This document shows, one piece after another, positions 7,654-27,796 of a stretch of 32,275 nt of DNA. The stretch is from Bacteroidales bacterium (GTDB lineage Bacteria > Bacteroidota > Bacteroidia > Bacteroidales > JAHJDW01). The DNA is taken from contig JAQUPB010000017.1 of NCBI GenBank assembly GCA_029004185.1, forward strand, positions 1 to 32,275, given 5' to 3'. The translations under genes were made by a program, and so were the position numbers. The stretch's first letter is position 1; every line of letters starts with the position of its first letter. The notes under the pieces were generated by a model. The model was not told the origin of the DNA. It saw only the letters and a program-made list of their open reading frames with translations, and did not search any database.

Positions 7654-7701
7654 TTTGCGGTTAAAAAAGTTTTTTATGTATTAAAAATAGTTATTTAAAA
7701 C

Positions 7702-7790
7702 CAGGACTAAAGTCCAAAAAGTGTTTGTGTAAGTGACCCCGCACTTAAGTGCGGGGTTATGAAGCTCAGAACAAACGTGCTTTAGCCCTG
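7702..7790. repeat. Palindromic REP-like element, copy 1
   Basis: A perfect 20-base palindrome centred on CGCACTTAAGTGCG spans 7737-7756. Outer arms pair around it: CAGGACTAAAG at 7702-7712 with CTTTAGCCCTG at 7780-7790, and GTGTTTGT at 7721-7728 with ACAAACG at 7771-7777. The sequence recurs at 12646-12729. It fills the gap between the radical SAM gene and the dehydratase. No transposase gene is nearby. Confidence 0.8.
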
Positions 7791-11629: not shown

Positions 11630-11704
11630 ACTCTATTTCGTTTTGGCTTTTTTTGTCTGTTATAATAAACTAATGTATCAGCAAATTAATTCTGAAAAAC
11701 TATT

Positions 11705-11812
11705 CGGTTATCAGTAATCGGTAATCAGTAGCAAAAAGTTTCTGAGATTCTAATCATTGAGTTCACTATTTTTAATATTATTCATTTTACCGATTACCGT
11801 TAACCGATTACT
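11705..11812. repeat. Imperfect inverted repeat of CGATTAC-type units
   Basis: CGGTTATCAGTAATCGGTAA (from 11705) and CGATTACCGTTAACCGATTA (11791-11810) are imperfect inverted copies built from GTAATC/GATTAC units. They occupy the gap 11630-11873, in which I see no gene. Confidence 0.5.
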
Positions 11813-11873
11813 GTTTACCCCTTACATTAATGATTACCATTGCAAAACTAAATCGTTCCAGACTGATTATCTA

Positions 11874-12572: not shown

Positions 12573-12645
12573 ATAATAATTGTCCGACTAAAATATGTAA
12601 TAAAAAAGAATTAAAAAAATAGTTAAAAATAGTCGATTGGAATTT

Positions 12646-12729
12646 GGACTAAAGTCCAAAAGTGCGTTTTGTATTTGTAACCCCGCACTTAAGTGCGGAG
12701 TTATTAAACCCGGAAGAAACGGGCTTTAC
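12646..12729. repeat. Palindromic REP-like element, copy 2
   Basis: It matches the element at 7702-7790 in the same orientation: GGACTAAAGTCC at 12646-12657, the central palindrome CCGCACTTAAGTGCGG at 12683-12698, and the right arm GAAACGGGCTTTAC at 12716-12729. The central stem is one base pair less perfect than in copy 1. It lies in the 428-base gap 12540-12967, which has no gene. Confidence 0.8.
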
Positions 12730-12791: not shown

Positions 12792-12887
12792 GCCACAAAG
12801 ACACAAGGACTCAAAGTTTCACAAAGAGAAACAAAATAAACAGCTAATACAACTTAGTGAACCTTTGAGTCCTTGTGCCTTTGTGGC
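12792..12887. repeat. Long inverted repeat downstream of lolA
   Basis: Two 31-base arms, 12792-12822 (starting GCCACAAAGACACAAGGACT) and 12857-12887 (ending TCCTTGTGCCTTTGTGGC), match at about 29 positions with a 34-base loop. The arm pattern resembles the ACCGCAAAG-type arms near the mut and aro genes. As RNA it would be a very stable hairpin after the LolA stop codon, so it could end transcription or protect the transcript. Confidence 0.75.
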
Positions 12888-20497: not shown

Positions 20498-22633
20498 TTA
20501 TTTTCTCGATTCGATTAATATATTTAATATTTTAATTGCTGCTTCCGAAATTATTGTGCCGGGACCGAAGATGCCCACAACTCCTGCCTTATATAAAAAT
20601 TCATAATCCTGCGGAGGAACAACACCGCCGACGATTACAATCAAATCTTCTCTTCCGAGAATTTTTAATTCCGCAATTACTTCAGGAACCAGCGTTTTAT
20701 GTCCTGCGGCCAGACTTGATATTCCGAGAATGTGAACATCATTTTCCACAGCTTGCTTTGCCGCTTCTTTTGGAGTCTGAAATAAAGGACCGATATCAAC
20801 ATCAAATCCCATATCGGCATAAGCAGTTGAAATAACCTTTGCACCACGGTCGTGTCCGTCCTGTCCCATTTTTGCAATCATAATTCTTGGGCGGCGACCT
20901 TCGAGTTTTTCGAATTCGTCAGCAAGATTTCTTGCTTTTGAAAAACCTTCATCATTTGCTATTTCCATAGAATATACTCCCGATATTGAACGTATTGTTG
21001 CTTTATATCTGCCAAAAACTTTTTCGCATGCATCTGAAATTTCGCCCAGTGTTGCCCGTTTGCGCGCCGCTTCAATTGACAAAGCTAATAAATTTTTTTC
21101 ATTTGTGCCGCATGCTTCGGTTATGGTATTTAATATATTTTTTACTTCTTCGTTATTTCTTTCTGCTTTTAAATTTCTCAGTCTTTTTATCTGTGATTCG
21201 CGAACGGCTGTATTGTCAACTTCGAGTGTTTCTATCGGTGCTTCTTTTTCCAGGCGGTATTTATTAACTCCTACAATTATATCTTTTCCCGAATCAATTT
21301 TTGCCTGACGGCGTGCCGAAGCTTCTTCAATTCTCATTTTCGGAATGCCCGTTTCTATTGCCTTTGCCATTCCGCCAAGATGTTCGATTTCCTGAATAAG
21401 TTTCCATGATTTGTGCGCAAGTTCGTGCGTAAGCGACTCAATATAATATGAGCCAGCCCACGGGTCAACAGCTTTGCAGATATTTGTTTCTTCCTGCAGA
21501 TAAATCTGAGTATTTCTTGCTATGCGTGCCGAGAAGTCGGTTGGCAGCGCAATTGCTTCATCAAGAGCATTTGTATGCAGTGATTGCGTGTGTCCAAGAA
21601 CCGCAGCCATCGCCTCAATGCAGGTTCTTGCAACATTGTTGAACGGGTCCTGTTCTGTTAAACTCCAGCCCGAAGTCTGGCAGTGAGTGCGTAATGCAAG
21701 TGATTTTGGATTTTTCGGATTGAATTGTTTTATGATCTTTGCCCACAACATTCTTGCGGCACGCATTTTTGCAATTTCCATAAAGTGATTCATTCCTATT
21801 CCCCAGAAAAATGATAAACGTGGAGCAAATGAATCAATGTCAATTCCTGCATTTATTCCCGCTCTCACATATTCAAGTCCGTCGGCTAAGGTATACGCAA
21901 GTTCAATATCGGCAGTAGCACCGGCTTCCTGTATGTGATAGCCGCTTATGCTTATTGAATTGAACTTCGGCATATTTTGCGAAGTGTATTTGAAAATATC
22001 GGCAATTATCCTCATTGACGGAAGTGGTGGATAAATATATGTATTCCGCACCATGAATTCTTTCAGAATGTCATTCTGAATTGTGCCGTTTAATTTTTCG
22101 GGCGAGATTCCCTGTTCTTCTGCTGCAACAATATAAAAGGCAAGTACAGGAAGTACTGCGCCGTTCATCGTCATCGAAACCGACATTTTATCAAGAGGAA
22201 TCTGGTCGAAAAGAATTTTCATGTCAAGTATAGAATCTATTGCCACGCCTGCTTTTCCGACATCGCCGGTTACGCGTTCATTGTCCGAATCGTAGCCGCG
22301 GTGCGTTGCAAGATCGAATGCAACCGAAAGTCCTTTTTGTCCGGCGGCAAGATTTCTCCTGTAAAAAGCATTCGACTCTTCGGCAGTTGAGAAACCGGCA
22401 TATTGCCGTATGGTCCATGGCTTCAACACATACATCGTGGAATAAGGTCCGTGCAGATAAGGAGGAATTCCTGCAGCATAATTCAAATGCTCCATTCCAA
22501 GCAAATCATCTTCGGTGTAAAACGGCTTAACGGCAATCTGTTCCGAAGTAAGCCAACTTTCTCCAGCAGAAAGTTTATTCACTTCTTTTTTGTTTTCTTT
22601 TCTGAAATCGATTTTTCTAAAATCAACTCTCAT
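20498..22633 (-). CDS. mutB: Methylmalonyl-CoA mutase, large (catalytic) subunit
   Basis: 711 residues, full length. It interconverts L-methylmalonyl-CoA and succinyl-CoA with adenosylcobalamin, used in propionate formation or breakdown. The N-terminal TIM barrel carries family blocks such as [28 protein letters not shown] and [14 protein letters not shown]. The C-terminal B12 domain starts at [13 protein letters not shown]. Asp592-Gly-His594-Asp-Arg-Gly597 is the DxHxxG motif whose histidine is the lower cobalt ligand. SSLAAGH and VVGGVVPP-type blocks follow. It lies 86 bases downstream of mutA, with a palindromic repeat between them. The MeaB-type chaperone is not in the window. Confidence 0.97.
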
Positions 22634-22647
22634 CTTTATATGTTTTT

Positions 22648-22708
22648 CTTTGCGTCTTAGCGTCTTAGCGGTAATTTTTTTTCACCGCAAAGGCGCTAAG
22701 CCGCAAAG
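22648..22708. repeat. ACCGC-type palindrome between mutA and mutB
   Basis: Left arm CTTTGCGTCTTAGCGTCTTA (from 22648) and right arm 22684-22708 (starting ACCGCAAAGGCGCTAAGCCG) pair at 22 of 25 positions with an 11-base T-rich loop. The same arms occur at 24942, 26258-26317 and 26708. Confidence 0.8.
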
Positions 22709-22719
22709 TAATTATGAAA

Positions 22720-24606
22720 TCATTTAATTAATATATTATTATATTTTTTCAATATTTCAATCACGTTTGAGCGCATATGAATAAAATCATCAACTCCTGC
22801 TTCTTTGAGTTGTTCTATTATTTCTGTGGGATTACCTGCAATAATAATTTTTATTTTTGCAGAATTGATTTTAATTCCTTTTGCAATTTCAATTCCGACT
22901 GTTGCATATTCTTCATCAGAACTGCAAATGACAACTATTTCGGGTTCAACTTTTTTTACAACTTCCAATCCTTCTGCTGCTGTTTTAAATCCTGCATTGT
23001 CAATTATTTCATAACCTGCACAACCGAAGAAATTTGTAGTGAATGCAGCTCTTGCCTTTCGCATAGCAGGATTTCCGATTGTAAGTAAAAATACCTTGGG
23101 ATGTTTTCCTGATTTTTCAACTGCGAATCTTATTTCTTCGAATGCTTCAGCGCCCCTGTACATTTTTATCTTTTTGCAAATAGTGTTCTTTTCAAAATTA
23201 TATTCTTTTGATTTCGCTTTTGTGATTTTGTCTAACATTTGTTCCTTCAGATTCGGATATTGATTTGTGCCAAGCAAAATTTGTTTTCGCATTGCAATAT
23301 CCATATTCCTTTGCTGGCATGTCTTTTCGATTTCATCCTGAACAAAATTATTTGAAACCGATTCGATAAATCCTCCCTTTTCTTCAATTTCCTGAAATAA
23401 TTTTAATGAAGCATTTGCAATGGAATCGGTTAAATTTTCAATGTAATATGAGCCTGCAGAAGGGTCAACTGCTTTATCAAAATGCGATTCGGATTTCAAA
23501 ATTGTCTGTATATTCCTTGAAATTCTTGATGAAAACTCATCTGCATCTTTAAATGTATTATCAAATGGCTGAACCGAAATTGAATCACTTCCGCCTATTG
23601 AAGCAGACATAGCTTCGGTTGTTAAGCGGAGAATATTTACATGAGCATCGTAAATGGTTTTATTCAATTTTGATGTTGTTGTATGAATATTTATCTGCAT
23701 CGATTCTTTATTCTTCGGATTATATTGCTCTATAACCTTTGCCCACAAAACTCTTGCTGCACGCAGTTTAGCTATTTCAAGAAAATAATTTGAACCGATT
23801 GCAAAAGAAAATAGAATCCGCGGAGCAATATCATCAATTTCAATTCCTTTGTTTAAAAGCTGAAAAATATATTCATTTGCCGAAGCAATACTGAAGCCAA
23901 GTTCCTGAACAATTGAACATCCTGCATTGTGCAGATAATTTCCATTTATTGTAATTAGCTTGAAATATGGAAGCTTTAATTTTGCCTGATTAATCAAATA
24001 AACGGCTTCAACAAAGTTGTTATCTTTTGTCGTGAAAAAGTTACCCTGCAGCAATAAATAACTCAAGGGGTCGAAACCTAAAGAACCTTTTATTTTTGCG
24101 GGAGTTAAGTTTTGTCTTTCAATTTCTTTTATAAATAAATCAAGTGTTGCAGTAAATGATTTTGAAGAAGTGAAATTAATTGTTGTTTTGTTTAAATCAA
24201 TGCCTTTCAGAAGAGCCTGCATTTCTTCGACTTTACTAATACCTTTTACCCTTAAACCAATTGCATTTGCTCCTTTTGAAACTGCATCCAGGGCAATTCT
24301 GTTTGCTTCCTGAATATTTTCCGTTTCAATATCCTGGCGTATTTCCCAGTCGTTGTTATTTTTTTTGTTTCCTCTTGCAAAAGGAAATTCTCCGGGGAAT
24401 GATTTTAAATATTTTAAATCATCAAGATTTTCGGCGCGATAATAAGGTCGAACACTAAAACCTTCTGTCGTTTTCCAGACAAGTTTTTTCTCGTAGTCGG
24501 CGCCTTTTAAATCTTCTTTGATTTTTTCTTCCCATTCATTTGTATTTACCGGAGGAAATTCGGTAAAAAGTCTTTCTTTTGCTTGATTATCAGTATCGGG
24601 ACACAT
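22720..24606 (-). CDS. mutA: Methylmalonyl-CoA mutase, small subunit
   Basis: 628 residues. It has the same two-domain layout as the large subunit: WKTTEGFSVRPYYRAENL near the start, YLHNAGCSIVQELGFSIA, AVDPSAGSYYIENLTD, then a C-terminal B12-like fold. In that last domain the DxHxxG motif is lost: the segment after FLLTIGN reads PAMRKARAAF. This is normal for the non-catalytic subunit, which supports the heterodimer. It is the upstream gene of the pair and has a possible promoter at 24629-24657. Confidence 0.95.
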   Translation of the reverse strand: MCPDTDNQAKERLFTEFPPVNTNEWEEKIKEDLKGADYEKKLVWKTTEGFSVRPYYRAENLDDLKYLKSFPGEFPFARGNKKNNNDWEIRQDIETENIQEANRIALDAVSKGANAIGLRVKGISKVEEMQALLKGIDLNKTTINFTSSKSFTATLDLFIKEIERQNLTPAKIKGSLGFDPLSYLLLQGNFFTTKDNNFVEAVYLINQAKLKLPYFKLITINGNYLHNAGCSIVQELGFSIASANEYIFQLLNKGIEIDDIAPRILFSFAIGSNYFLEIAKLRAARVLWAKVIEQYNPKNKESMQINIHTTTSKLNKTIYDAHVNILRLTTEAMSASIGGSDSISVQPFDNTFKDADEFSSRISRNIQTILKSESHFDKAVDPSAGSYYIENLTDSIANASLKLFQEIEEKGGFIESVSNNFVQDEIEKTCQQRNMDIAMRKQILLGTNQYPNLKEQMLDKITKAKSKEYNFEKNTICKKIKMYRGAEAFEEIRFAVEKSGKHPKVFLLTIGNPAMRKARAAFTTNFFGCAGYEIIDNAGFKTAAEGLEVVKKVEPEIVVICSSDEEYATVGIEIAKGIKINSAKIKIIIAGNPTEIIEQLKEAGVDDFIHMRSNVIEILKKYNNILIK

Positions 24607-24932: not shown

Positions 24933-24941
24933 AAAAATCTT

Positions 24942-24966
24942 ACCGCGGAGACGCAAAGACGCAAAG
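24942..24966. repeat. Single ACCGC-type repeat arm between convergent genes
   Basis: One arm, starting ACCGCGGAGACGCAAAGACG, without its partner. It lies between the stops of the small membrane gene and aroA. Confidence 0.7.
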
Positions 24967-24979
24967 AAAAATTATTTTT

Positions 24980-26245
24980 TTAAATTTCTTCTATTTTGAA
25001 ACCCACTGACTTTAAATCATTCCAAAAGTTAGGATATGACTTTGTTACAACATCGGGATTTTCGATTTTTATTTCACCAAGCAAAATTGCAAGCGGAGCA
25101 AATGACATTGCCATGCGGTGATCATTGTATGTTGAAATTGTGAAATTGTGAATTTGAGAATTTGTGAATTGCTCACTTTTACGCTGAACGCTTAACGCTG
25201 AACGCCGAACGGGTTTTGTTTTATATTCGAACTTTTTCAATTCCGTATGCAGTGCATCAAGCCGGCGGGTTTCTTTAATATTAAGGTTTGACAATCCTTT
25301 GAGCGTAGCTTTAATATTTAAGCCGGCGCATGTAACGGCAAGAGTTTGGGCAATATCAGGGCAACCGATAAAATCGTATTCGAACTCATTGATTTTTGGT
25401 TTTTCTTTTAAAAGATGTATTGCATTCTCATCAAGCCATTTTGTTTTTACTCCGAATTTTTCGAATATTTTTGAAACAACAGAATCGCCCTGGAGATTAT
25501 TATTTAAAAGTCCTTCAATTGTTAAATCAACTTCATCGGAAAATGCCGCCATTTCATACCAGTAAGAGACACCGCTCCAGTCGCCGCCTATATCAAATTC
25601 AGAAGATTTATATTCCTGATTTTTTATTTCAATTTTATTTTCTTTCCATGAATATTTTATTCCGAAATGTTTCATGATTTTTAATGTCATTTCGACATAA
25701 GGCTTTGAAACAAGTTCACCTTTAATGGAAATTTCCAGACCGTTTTTTAGTATCGGTGCAATCATCAGAAGTGCGGAAATATACTGACTGCTTATGTTTC
25801 CGTTAATTATAATTTCTGATTTTTTAAAAACGGAACCGGTAATTTTTAGCGGAGGAAATCCTTTTTTACCGGCATATTCAATATTTGCTCCTAAAGTATT
25901 TAATGCATCAACGAGTACACCTATCGGTCGTTTTTTCATTTGTTCCGAACCGGTGAGCAGATATTTTCCTTCTTTTATGGAAAGAAATGCCGTGAGGAAA
26001 CGCATTGCTGTTCCTGCAGCACCGGCATCAACGGTTAAAGCATTTTTGCAATTTTTATTATCAGAAATCTTTTTTAATGCTTTATGCAAAATTATCGTGT
26101 CATCTGAATCGGAGAGATTATTTATTTTAACAGGGTTAGCAGAAAGGGCTTTAATAAGCAAAACCCTGTTGCTTTCGCTTTTCGATTGAGGAATTATTAT
26201 TTTGCCTTTTAGCGTTTTGTTATTTTTTGATATTCTGTATGTCAT
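24980..26245 (-). CDS. aroA: 3-phosphoshikimate 1-carboxyvinyltransferase (EPSP synthase)
   Basis: 421 residues. It joins shikimate-3-phosphate and phosphoenolpyruvate in aromatic amino-acid synthesis. PQSKSESNR (19-27) carries the active-site Lys22 and Arg27. GAAGTAMRFLTA near 80, GGDWSGVSYW and PDIAQTLAV follow. TYNDHRMAMSFAPLA near the C-terminus is the second substrate-binding motif. Residues about 346-371, just before TYNDHRMA, are low-complexity (RRSALSVQRKSEQF, then TNSQIHNFTIS) and are encoded by repeat DNA at 25134-25210. The frame is kept. The enzyme supplies the pathway to tyrosine, the pigment starter, though it is in a separate unit with aroB. Confidence 0.95.
   Translation of the reverse strand: MTYRISKNNKTLKGKIIIPQSKSESNRVLLIKALSANPVKINNLSDSDDTIILHKALKKISDNKNCKNALTVDAGAAGTAMRFLTAFLSIKEGKYLLTGSEQMKKRPIGVLVDALNTLGANIEYAGKKGFPPLKITGSVFKKSEIIINGNISSQYISALLMIAPILKNGLEISIKGELVSKPYVEMTLKIMKHFGIKYSWKENKIEIKNQEYKSSEFDIGGDWSGVSYWYEMAAFSDEVDLTIEGLLNNNLQGDSVVSKIFEKFGVKTKWLDENAIHLLKEKPKINEFEYDFIGCPDIAQTLAVTCAGLNIKATLKGLSNLNIKETRRLDALHTELKKFEYKTKPVRRSALSVQRKSEQFTNSQIHNFTISTYNDHRMAMSFAPLAILLGEIKIENPDVVTKSYPNFWNDLKSVGFKIEEI
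25134..25210. repeat. Repeat DNA inside the aroA coding region
   Basis: Two repeat types lie side by side: units of the form GAAATTGTGAAATTGTGAA, GAATTTGTGAATT at 25134-25170, and units ACGCTGAACGCTTAACGCTG continuing AACGCCGAAC at 25181-25210. Both look like intergenic repeats but lie in frame in aroA, with no stop. Confidence 0.65.
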
Positions 26246-26257
26246 TGTATCTTTTTT

Positions 26258-26317
26258 CTCTGCGTCTTAGCGCCTTTACGGTAAAATTTTTCACCGCTAA
26301 GGCGCGAAGACGCAAAG
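26258..26317. repeat. ACCGC-type palindrome between aroA and the GxxExxY gene
   Basis: Left arm 26258-26282 (starting CTCTGCGTCTTAGCGCCTTT) pairs at about 21 of 25 positions with right arm 26293-26317 (starting ACCGCTAAGGCGCGAAGACG). The right arm ends one base before the stop codon of the GxxExxY gene. Confidence 0.8.
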
Positions 26318-26318
26318 G

Positions 26319-26705
26319 TTAAAAATTATTTACAAATCTTTTAAATCCATCTTTTAATAATGGAACATTAAAATTAACAAGAAAACCCAATTTTTTGTCA
26401 GCAAGTTTTAAATATGAAATTATTTGAGCTTGGTGAACAGGCAATATAATTTCAACCGATTTTACTTCAATTATTATTTCATTTTCAACTAAAATATCAA
26501 TTCTGAAATCTTTGGATAGTTCAATTCCTTTGTATAAAAGCGGAATTGAAACTTCAGTTAAAACATTTAATTTTCTGTTTTTTAGTTCCCTAACAAGACA
26601 AAGAACATAAATTGATTCCAATAATCCCGGACCCATTTCTTTATGAACATGAAAGCAACTATCTAAAATTTCCTGTGATAATTTGTTTAGAAAATCGTTT
26701 TCCAT
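26319..26705 (-). CDS. GxxExxY protein (PD-(D/E)xK-like family)
   Basis: 128 residues, matching the TIGR04256 GxxExxY family at full length. The name-giving motif is Gly-Leu-Leu-Glu-Ser-Ile-Tyr in GPGLLESIY (27-35). The sequence DFRIDILVENEIIIEVKSVE (66-85) holds the Asp...Glu-x-Lys pattern of PD-(D/E)xK nucleases. The conserved QAQIISYLKL and LGFLVNFNVPLLKDG blocks follow. No biochemical role is established to my knowledge. It lies between aroB and aroA on the same strand. The 25-base ACCGC-type arms end 1 base past its stop and 2 bases before its start, in inverted orientation, suggesting that gene and repeats travel as a unit. Confidence 0.88.
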   Translation of the reverse strand: MENDFLNKLSQEILDSCFHVHKEMGPGLLESIYVLCLVRELKNRKLNVLTEVSIPLLYKGIELSKDFRIDILVENEIIIEVKSVEIILPVHQAQIISYLKLADKKLGFLVNFNVPLLKDGFKRFVNNF

Positions 26706-26707
26706 TT

Positions 26708-26732
26708 CTCTGCGTCTTAGCGCCTCTGCGGT
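26708..26732. repeat. ACCGC-type arm spanning the aroB 3' end
   Basis: Starts CTCTGCGTCTTAGCGCCTCT and is an inverted copy of the arm at 26293-26317. It covers the whole 11-base gap and the last codons of aroB, including its stop. Confidence 0.78.
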
Positions 26733-27796
26733 AAATTTTTATAAAAGTTCAATGATTCAGAAATTAAATTTTCTTCAATTTCATTATCAATTTTATATTT
26801 ACCGATTTCAGGTATCAATGTAAAATTTATTTTTTTGTTGACATTCTTTTTATCGAAATGCATGAGTTCAATCAATCTTTTAATTTCGAAATTTTTGTAT
26901 TGCCTGAAGACAGGACTAATAACAGATATTATTTCATTAAGTTCTTTTTCTTTAAGCTTTAAAATTTTAGCTGAAAGATATGCTTCGCAAATCATTCCTG
27001 CGGCAATTGCTTCACCGTGCAACAATGGATTTTTATCATTTTCCAGAGAATAACTTTCAAAAGCATGACCGATAGTGTGTCCGAAATTTAAAGCCTTACG
27101 GATATTATTTTCTTTCGGGTCGAGTTTTACGATTTTGCTTTTTATTTCAACGGATTTTTTAATAATAAAATTCCAATCAGCATCCTTAACGCCCGTACTT
27201 TTCAGTGTTTTCAAATATTCTTTATCGCATATCAAAGCATGCTTAATAATTTCGGCATAACCTGAAATCAATTCTCTTTTATCAAGAGTTATCAGAAAAG
27301 CAGGATTGATAAAAATTGCTTTCGGGTTTCCAAAGATGCCGATTTGATTCTTAATATTATCAAGGTTTACTGCTGTTTTCCCGCCAATAGATGCATCAAC
27401 CATTGAAAGCAGTGTTGTGGGAAGATGAATAAAGCCAATGCCTCTTTTAAAAGTTGATGCAGTGAACCCGCCAAGGTCGGTGATAACGCCGCCGCCGAGA
27501 TTTATCAGCAATGAATTTCTGTCAGCATTTGAAAAAATAAGTTTATCCCATAATGTCTTACAAATTTTGATATTTTTTCTTTTTTCACCGCTTTTAATTT
27601 TTAAGATTTTGGCTGATTTTAAAAATTTTATTCTCGCGATCAACAATGGAAGGCAATGTTTTCCGGTATTCTCATCAACAAGAATGAATATTTTCTTTGA
27701 TGAATATTTTTCTAAGAAATTTTCCAATTCCGGGAAAATATTTTCACCAATAAATATCGGGTAATCCAGAATGTTTGATTTTATTAAACTACTCAT
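26717..27796 (-). CDS. aroB: 3-dehydroquinate synthase
   Basis: 359 residues, usual length. It closes DAHP to 3-dehydroquinate using NAD and zinc. INLGGGVITDLGGF (about 98-111) binds NAD. LPTTLLSMVDASIGGKTAVN is the conserved loop. Metal ligands are Glu in SGYAEIIKHAL and the histidines in NFGHTIGHAFES and LLHGEAIAAGM. The final residues NLPQRR and the stop are encoded by repeat DNA. It is 13 bases downstream of mntP and 11 bases upstream of the GxxExxY gene, so the four genes are probably co-transcribed. Confidence 0.96.
   Translation of the reverse strand: MSSLIKSNILDYPIFIGENIFPELENFLEKYSSKKIFILVDENTGKHCLPLLIARIKFLKSAKILKIKSGEKRKNIKICKTLWDKLIFSNADRNSLLINLGGGVITDLGGFTASTFKRGIGFIHLPTTLLSMVDASIGGKTAVNLDNIKNQIGIFGNPKAIFINPAFLITLDKRELISGYAEIIKHALICDKEYLKTLKSTGVKDADWNFIIKKSVEIKSKIVKLDPKENNIRKALNFGHTIGHAFESYSLENDKNPLLHGEAIAAGMICEAYLSAKILKLKEKELNEIISVISPVFRQYKNFEIKRLIELMHFDKKNVNKKINFTLIPEIGKYKIDNEIEENLISESLNFYKNLPQRR

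Follow-up and report, generated by a model that had tools for sequence, protein, structure and literature searches.

The window analysed here, i.e., the whole 32,275-nt stretch of contig JAQUPB010000017.1 (assembly GCA_029004185.1) from a Bacteroidales bacterium, carries on its minus strand a GxxExxY gene (26319..26705) encoding a 128-amino-acid, putatively Cas4/RecB-like PD-(D/E)XK protein in which E30, D70, E80-x-K82, and Q94xxxY98 are intact. Annotation and synteny place the gene between aroB (26717..27796, minus strand), its upstream neighbour, and aroA (24980..26245, minus strand), its downstream neighbour. Two inverted arms enclose it: arm B (26290..26317, minus strand), 1 nt beyond the stop codon, and arm C (26708..26735, plus strand), 2 nt ahead of the ATG, which in the direction of the gene runs ACCGCAGAG-G-CGCTAAG-A-CGCAGAG and is followed by AA-ATG. 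The coordinates confirm the distances given in an earlier note made from the sequence alone, and the agreement between the arms that it had put at about 20 of 25 positions was measured as 21 of 25 (23 of 28 for the 28-nt versions). As the aroB stop codon falls within arm C, the C-terminus of AroB (...NLPQRR*) is encoded by the arm. A further outer arm A (26258..26285, plus strand), within the coordinates of the earlier note though missing from its description, repeats arm C in direct orientation (26/28) and, together with arm B, folds into a closed hairpin (z = -6.0 vs shuffles).

The arm recurs elsewhere in the window, as had also been proposed: at no more than 3 mismatches, the 28-nt sequence has five copies, whereas 100 shuffles gave 0. 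Two neighbouring genes for methylmalonyl-CoA mutase (20498-22633 and 22720-24606) are separated by a gene-less hairpin of this arm family (22648..22708; arms 22648-22675 and 22681-22708; z -7.5), and a single arm (24939..24966, minus strand) was added by a PWM scan. Another gene-less hairpin (12792..12887; 35-nt arms, 91% complementary; z -10.3) is of a related CACAAAG heptamer type. Across the 3.24-Mb source genome there are ~40 arm copies, many of them gene-less hairpins. Of the other GxxExxY copies in this genome, one (C14) lies within a pair of arms that are akin to these yet distinct, a decayed one (C42) has CCACAGATTCACAGATT arms on either side, and a paralogue (C1, L003) is without arms, which counts against the cassette reading developed below.

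Other repeats were also observed in the window. Two REP-like blocks at 7681-7784 and 12623-12728 (ACCCCGCACTTAAGTGCGGGGTTAT... with GGACTAAAGTCC) are 79-82% alike and possibly of RAYT type, and at 11695-11816, motifs of the TAATCGGTTA type are iterated in the 30-nt arms of a gene-less hairpin whose loop is 62 nt long. Inside aroA (25140-25225), a variable loop consists of in-frame iterated short repeats (CGTTCAGCGTTAAGCGTTCAGCG, ATTCACAAATTCTCAAATTCACAATTTCACAATTTC); an insertion of repeats was considered here and rejected, the loop being just ~4 residues longer than in relatives and hence a replaced one.

The PD-(D/E)xK-like signature noted earlier in the protein was upheld by profile matches to TIGR04256 GxxExxY (137.7 bits, cut-off 35, E 2e-40) and PF13366 PDDEXK_3 (132.9 bits, cut-off 22, E 9e-39), as well as by the active-site residues listed above, which are conserved in alignments. 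From an AlphaFold2 model (pLDDT 94), the protein is predicted to adopt a compact Cas4/RecB-like PD-(D/E)XK fold with a QxxxY motif. The best match among PDB structures is SSO0001, a Cas4 (Foldseek E 1e-3; VIA Z 9.7; rmsd 3.3 Å over 100 residues), with other structural matches, at Z ~8 or less, representing generic PD-(D/E)XK background. A sequence search of the PDB gave no match, and Cas4 profiles gave weak hits only. With one nearly universal cysteine (C36) in the alignment, the protein has no four-cysteine Fe-S site. Half of the 148 Bacteroidota genomes searched encode GxxExxY proteins, as do members of a dozen further phyla, and multiple copies per genome are common. Five species of a single genus (L140, L142, L143, L147, L149) have the domain at the N-terminus of a RecQ helicase; these fused copies have no visible arms, and in one of them the domain has lost its first half. 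Long in-frame ORFs in one genus, considered as cassettes lying inside a gene, were rejected as such and are this RecQ fusion. A phage origin was likewise rejected, with 1 match to a single strict peptide pattern in 2.9 million viral contigs. In the open-licence literature, we found no paper assigning GxxExxY proteins a function, and searches with the heptamer strings gave nothing relevant; two papers name GxxExxY, one of them in passing, and one contains PF13366.

Arms of this kind accompany GxxExxY genes well beyond the window. In a first set of 30 loci, one per Bacteroidota genome and each the best-scoring of its genome, on which the heptamer motif was defined, the gene is preceded by 2-4 heptamers CRCRRAG, spaced 1-4 nt apart (seen as CGCAAAG, CACAGAG, CACGGAG, or CGCTAAG), and the reverse complements stand directly after the stop codon. 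Per 160 nt at the Bacteroidota loci, the heptamer CRCDRAG occurs 2.48 times upstream in forward and 2.21 times downstream in reverse orientation; at least two correctly oriented heptamers per side were present in the 160-nt flanks of 20/29 loci vs 0/29 for an aroB control. Since the motif had been chosen on these first loci, the count was repeated on 80 named loci of another collection, and in this second set 22/34 loci pass (from Planctomycetota, Chloroflexota, Pseudomonadota, Acidobacteria, and others). Taken over 104 GxxExxY loci from ~13 phyla, iterated CRCRRAG heptamers form inverted arms around the gene, with arms paired at 67 loci, present on at least one side at 32, and regex-negative at 5, most of which display visible variant heptamers; the association that the earlier note had seen once is thus general, and an absence of arms from most homologues, which that note had named as a refutation, is not what the loci show. 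Heptamer density at these loci is 0.39-0.77 per 20 nt beside the ORF vs 0.015 at 500-1200 nt, and the upstream and downstream arms of one gene are more alike than swapped arms are (median 30 vs 18, p 3e-35).

Hairpins downstream of genes can serve as terminators, and arms adjoin unrelated genes too; the arms might thus be ordinary terminators or REP-like repeats that happen to lie near the gene. Given a local enrichment of up to ~50-fold in fixed orientation on both sides, the lack of any such pattern at aroB, and identical heptamers in ~13 phyla, we consider such a coincidence extremely improbable.

Controls for inverted bracketing behaved as follows: RAYT genes were positive (41% vs 1.4% swapped) and aroB negative (0%). 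Genes for four-helix-bundle proteins had been considered as an arm-free control and were rejected in this role, being likewise bracketed, by other motifs (own-arm match 33% vs 1.6% swapped). These S23-type (TIGR02436) genes (L096-L125) number up to 16 per Bacteroidota genome and are set (e.g., L106 and L120) in inverted arrays of other iterated motifs such as GTATCAAGAT, CTTAGNAT, or a TAACTGA-like heptamer.

The arm motif changes with the protein rather than with the host. At 28 Bacteroidota loci of a second GxxExxY clade (GNGF-Q), CRCRRAG heptamers are almost absent (0.04 vs 2.46), and the arms typically comprise GTCTGAATC and then iterated RGATTNA. On a tree of 132 proteins, arm class changes twice; among classified loci, the L clade has 89 CRC vs 1 GATT (n = 90) and the Q clade 0 CRC vs 12 GATT (n = 12). 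Since the two clades coexist in several genomes and each keeps its own arms there, the motif is not determined by the host genome. Host phylum, on the same tree, undergoes 22 changes over 76 loci, as expected if the unit passes between phyla. For the earlier suggestion that the protein acts on, or moves with, the repeat, this tracking of protein clade by arm class suggests that the first part may be correct, and the second is well supported by the genome comparisons that follow.

The number of heptamer arrays, counted as AACCRCRRAGN{1,4}CRCRRAG in 148 Bacteroidota genomes, depends on the presence of the gene. In this test, which takes in the genomes used to define the motif as well as the GxxExxY genes' own arms, the 74 genomes with GxxExxY hold 380 arrays (1.34 per Mb) and the 74 without it hold 18 (0.079 per Mb), a 17-fold difference; at least 5 arrays were found in 26 genomes with the gene vs 0 without. 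The reversed pattern gave 7 and 9, respectively, and when gene presence was shuffled within families, the observed excess was reached in 0 of 5000 trials. In the single genome examined for this, all but 2 of the 25 arrays (23) lie away from any GxxExxY copy. Among arm pairs without an annotated gene, one surrounds a decayed GxxExxY. Arms next to unrelated genes, which the earlier note had held to speak against a dedicated unit, do occur, yet as gene-less, REP-like hairpins whose genome-wide density follows the gene.

The same counts bear on whether another enzyme, e.g., a RAYT-type HUH transposase, mobilizes the cassette, with GxxExxY as cargo or helper. Such an arrangement would account for a cassette without a classical transposase and for the mean of 6.0 arrays in genomes with both GxxExxY and RAYT, against 0.75 with GxxExxY alone. 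RAYT alone, however, goes with 0.23 arrays per genome, the same as neither gene (0.27), RAYT genes have their own palindromes and no heptamer arms, and the arm motif tracks the GxxExxY clade; we thus regard a passenger role as unlikely, though RAYT may act as a helper, a point against the cassette reading in its simplest form. In one genome (G055, contig 33, 223092-224367, covered in part by L381), a RAYT gene is located ~580 nt from a GxxExxY gene.

Gain and loss were compared using one genome per species. The empty site that the earlier note had proposed to seek in relatives was found: a genome of the same family has an aroB-aroA gap of 3 nt, most of 11 relatives have one of -19 to +26 nt, none exceeds 78 nt, and GxxExxY lies between the two genes in none of the 11 syntenic relatives. 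Empty sites are also present in a well-sampled genus (g43), where, at a site between two succinate dehydrogenase (sdh) genes named by eye from sequence, 3 of 8 species have the cassette, 4 are empty of gene and arms, and 1 has a scar. The outer arm ends mark the limits of the sdh insert; several flanking bases differ between filled and empty alleles, and no clear target-site duplication was seen at this site. At another g43 site (III), four species carry a hairpin, the gene, and one more arm, and a fifth has a lone hairpin. At yet another site, GxxExxY is decayed in one species and absent from another, in which the flanking genes overlap. By these sites, gene and arms are gained and lost as one block. 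Gene-less hairpins are polymorphic in part, with 2 of 7 sites occupied in all 5 sister species and the others in 2-4; they move slowly, which counts against the cassette reading. Copies of GxxExxY conserved at a site have dN/dS values of 0 to 0.14, i.e., purifying selection, and in-frame stops occur in 5 of 72 database copies. At L361 (G038), an apparent four-helix-bundle gene, read by eye, occupies the place where four sisters (L325, L358-L360) have a CRCRRAG hairpin, suggesting that both types of cassette use one spot.

These sites also speak to the idea that the gene enters pre-existing, unrelated hairpins, as some insertion sequences do with REPs, such that the arms would be its target. 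The many gene-less hairpins fit this idea, as does site III, where the species lacking the gene has the hairpin alone; but the sdh site is free of arms as well as of the gene in 4 species, array density is gene-dependent, the arms of a cassette match each other, and their motif tracks the protein clade within one genome. A mere target preference is therefore, in our judgement, quite improbable.

On balance, we favour a minimal mobile cassette with a nuclease that acts on the arms flanking its gene, a reading that is probable to us, with cleavage and transposition as the presumed activities. Read at the level of genomes, the comparisons show a discrete unit that is tightly bracketed, has clade-specific arms and a gene-dependent number of arrays, is gained and lost at orthologous sites, and is maintained by purifying selection. 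The unit measures ~430-480 bp and has one nuclease gene set between inverted arms, each of which is an irregular array of ~3 heptamers (in this clade, CRCRRAG). The nuclease would recognize heptamer arms that have folded into hairpins or cruciforms and would cut there, most likely on DNA that is single-stranded while being replicated or repaired. Strand transfer or repair would then copy or move both the arm-gene-arm units and the hairpins without a gene, with the host supplying helicase and polymerase functions; the RecQ fusion in one genus fits such a role at unwound DNA structures.

More tentatively, and with somewhat less than even confidence, these cassettes may constitute a pan-bacterial class of mobile DNA, i.e., autonomous ~450-bp units in which a stand-alone Cas4/RecB-like nuclease recognizes heptamer-array arms specific to its clade and spreads hairpins without a gene as well as itself, with S23 genes occupying a parallel set of cassettes. 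If so, a widely annotated domain of unknown function would gain a substrate, namely its own arms, and a common class of intergenic hairpins would gain an origin. Single-gene mobility by a Cas4-like nuclease would moreover be testable with a ~125-residue protein and short oligonucleotides, and the matter bears on the route by which RecB/Cas4-like nucleases entered CRISPR adaptation and repair.

Several known systems share parts of this anatomy. The intervening sequence (IVS) of 23S rRNA shares with the cassette a size of ~430 bp (428 nt in Coxiella), inverted repeats at the termini, a single small ORF, and heptamers just before the start codon (PMC4990558). Together with the S23/four-helix-bundle genes that in these genomes also lie within inverted arrays, this likeness would favour an RNA-level element, whose arms pair in the transcript and whose stem is processed (e.g., by RNase III), leaving the DNA repeat as a by-product. 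An IVS, however, encodes S23 (PF05635/TIGR02436), which is unrelated to GxxExxY and has no match in the cassette, and is inserted in rRNA, whereas cassettes lie between protein genes, aroB and aroA in the window, and gene-less hairpins in intergenic DNA. Arm mismatches, moreover, lack the signature of an RNA strand, with no G-U bias on the sense strand in a wobble test (74 vs 75); arm pairing thus looks to be at the DNA rather than the RNA level, and we judge the RNA-level alternative improbable. Under the more tentative reading of a pan-bacterial class, in which S23 genes occupy parallel heptamer-array cassettes, rRNA intervening sequences would be one special case of a much larger class.

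Direct repeats of the heptamer TAACTGA are known from Beggiatoaceae, Cyanobacteria, and Bacteroidetes, where they precede start codons and for which horizontal transfer has been suggested and a regulatory role proposed (PMC4679880). These resemble the cassette arms in being heptamer arrays just before start codons with a patchy distribution between phyla; they differ in heptamer, in being direct repeats, and in having no linked nuclease, and are closer to the arms of some four-helix-bundle genes. With the Cas4/RecB-family nucleases (SSO0001, lambda exonuclease, AddB), GxxExxY has in common a PD-(D/E)XK core with QxxxY, but it is ~125 amino acids long and without the four-cysteine Fe-S site. 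In contrast to insertion sequences and MITEs, the unit holds GxxExxY alone, with no DDE, HUH, or serine/tyrosine recombinase.

A further parallel, the one drawn in the earlier note, is RAYT/REP, in which a single small nuclease gene lies between inverted repeats, with gene-less repeat copies and clade-tied repeat classes (PMC2817692, PMC3116915, PMC8266576). The parallel holds for anatomy: the GxxExxY gene is flanked by inverted repeats that are also present gene-less in the genome. It fails for the proteins, since RAYT is an HUH Y1 enzyme (PF01797), whereas GxxExxY is of the PD-(D/E)XK type, and the cassette protein matches only PF13366. It fails for the repeats as well: REPs are short palindromes with a GTAG tag, whereas the cassette has irregular heptamer arrays with no GTAG in the window arms, and RAYT genes in the same Bacteroidota have palindromes other than the GxxExxY arms. 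The cassette would thus work in the manner of RAYT-REP and resembles the S23 IVS in appearance, but because both protein family and repeat type fail these tests, it is neither a RAYT-REP system nor an S23 IVS; rather, it is an element of the single-gene, inverted-repeat, REP-like kind, with a real chance of being a class of its own.
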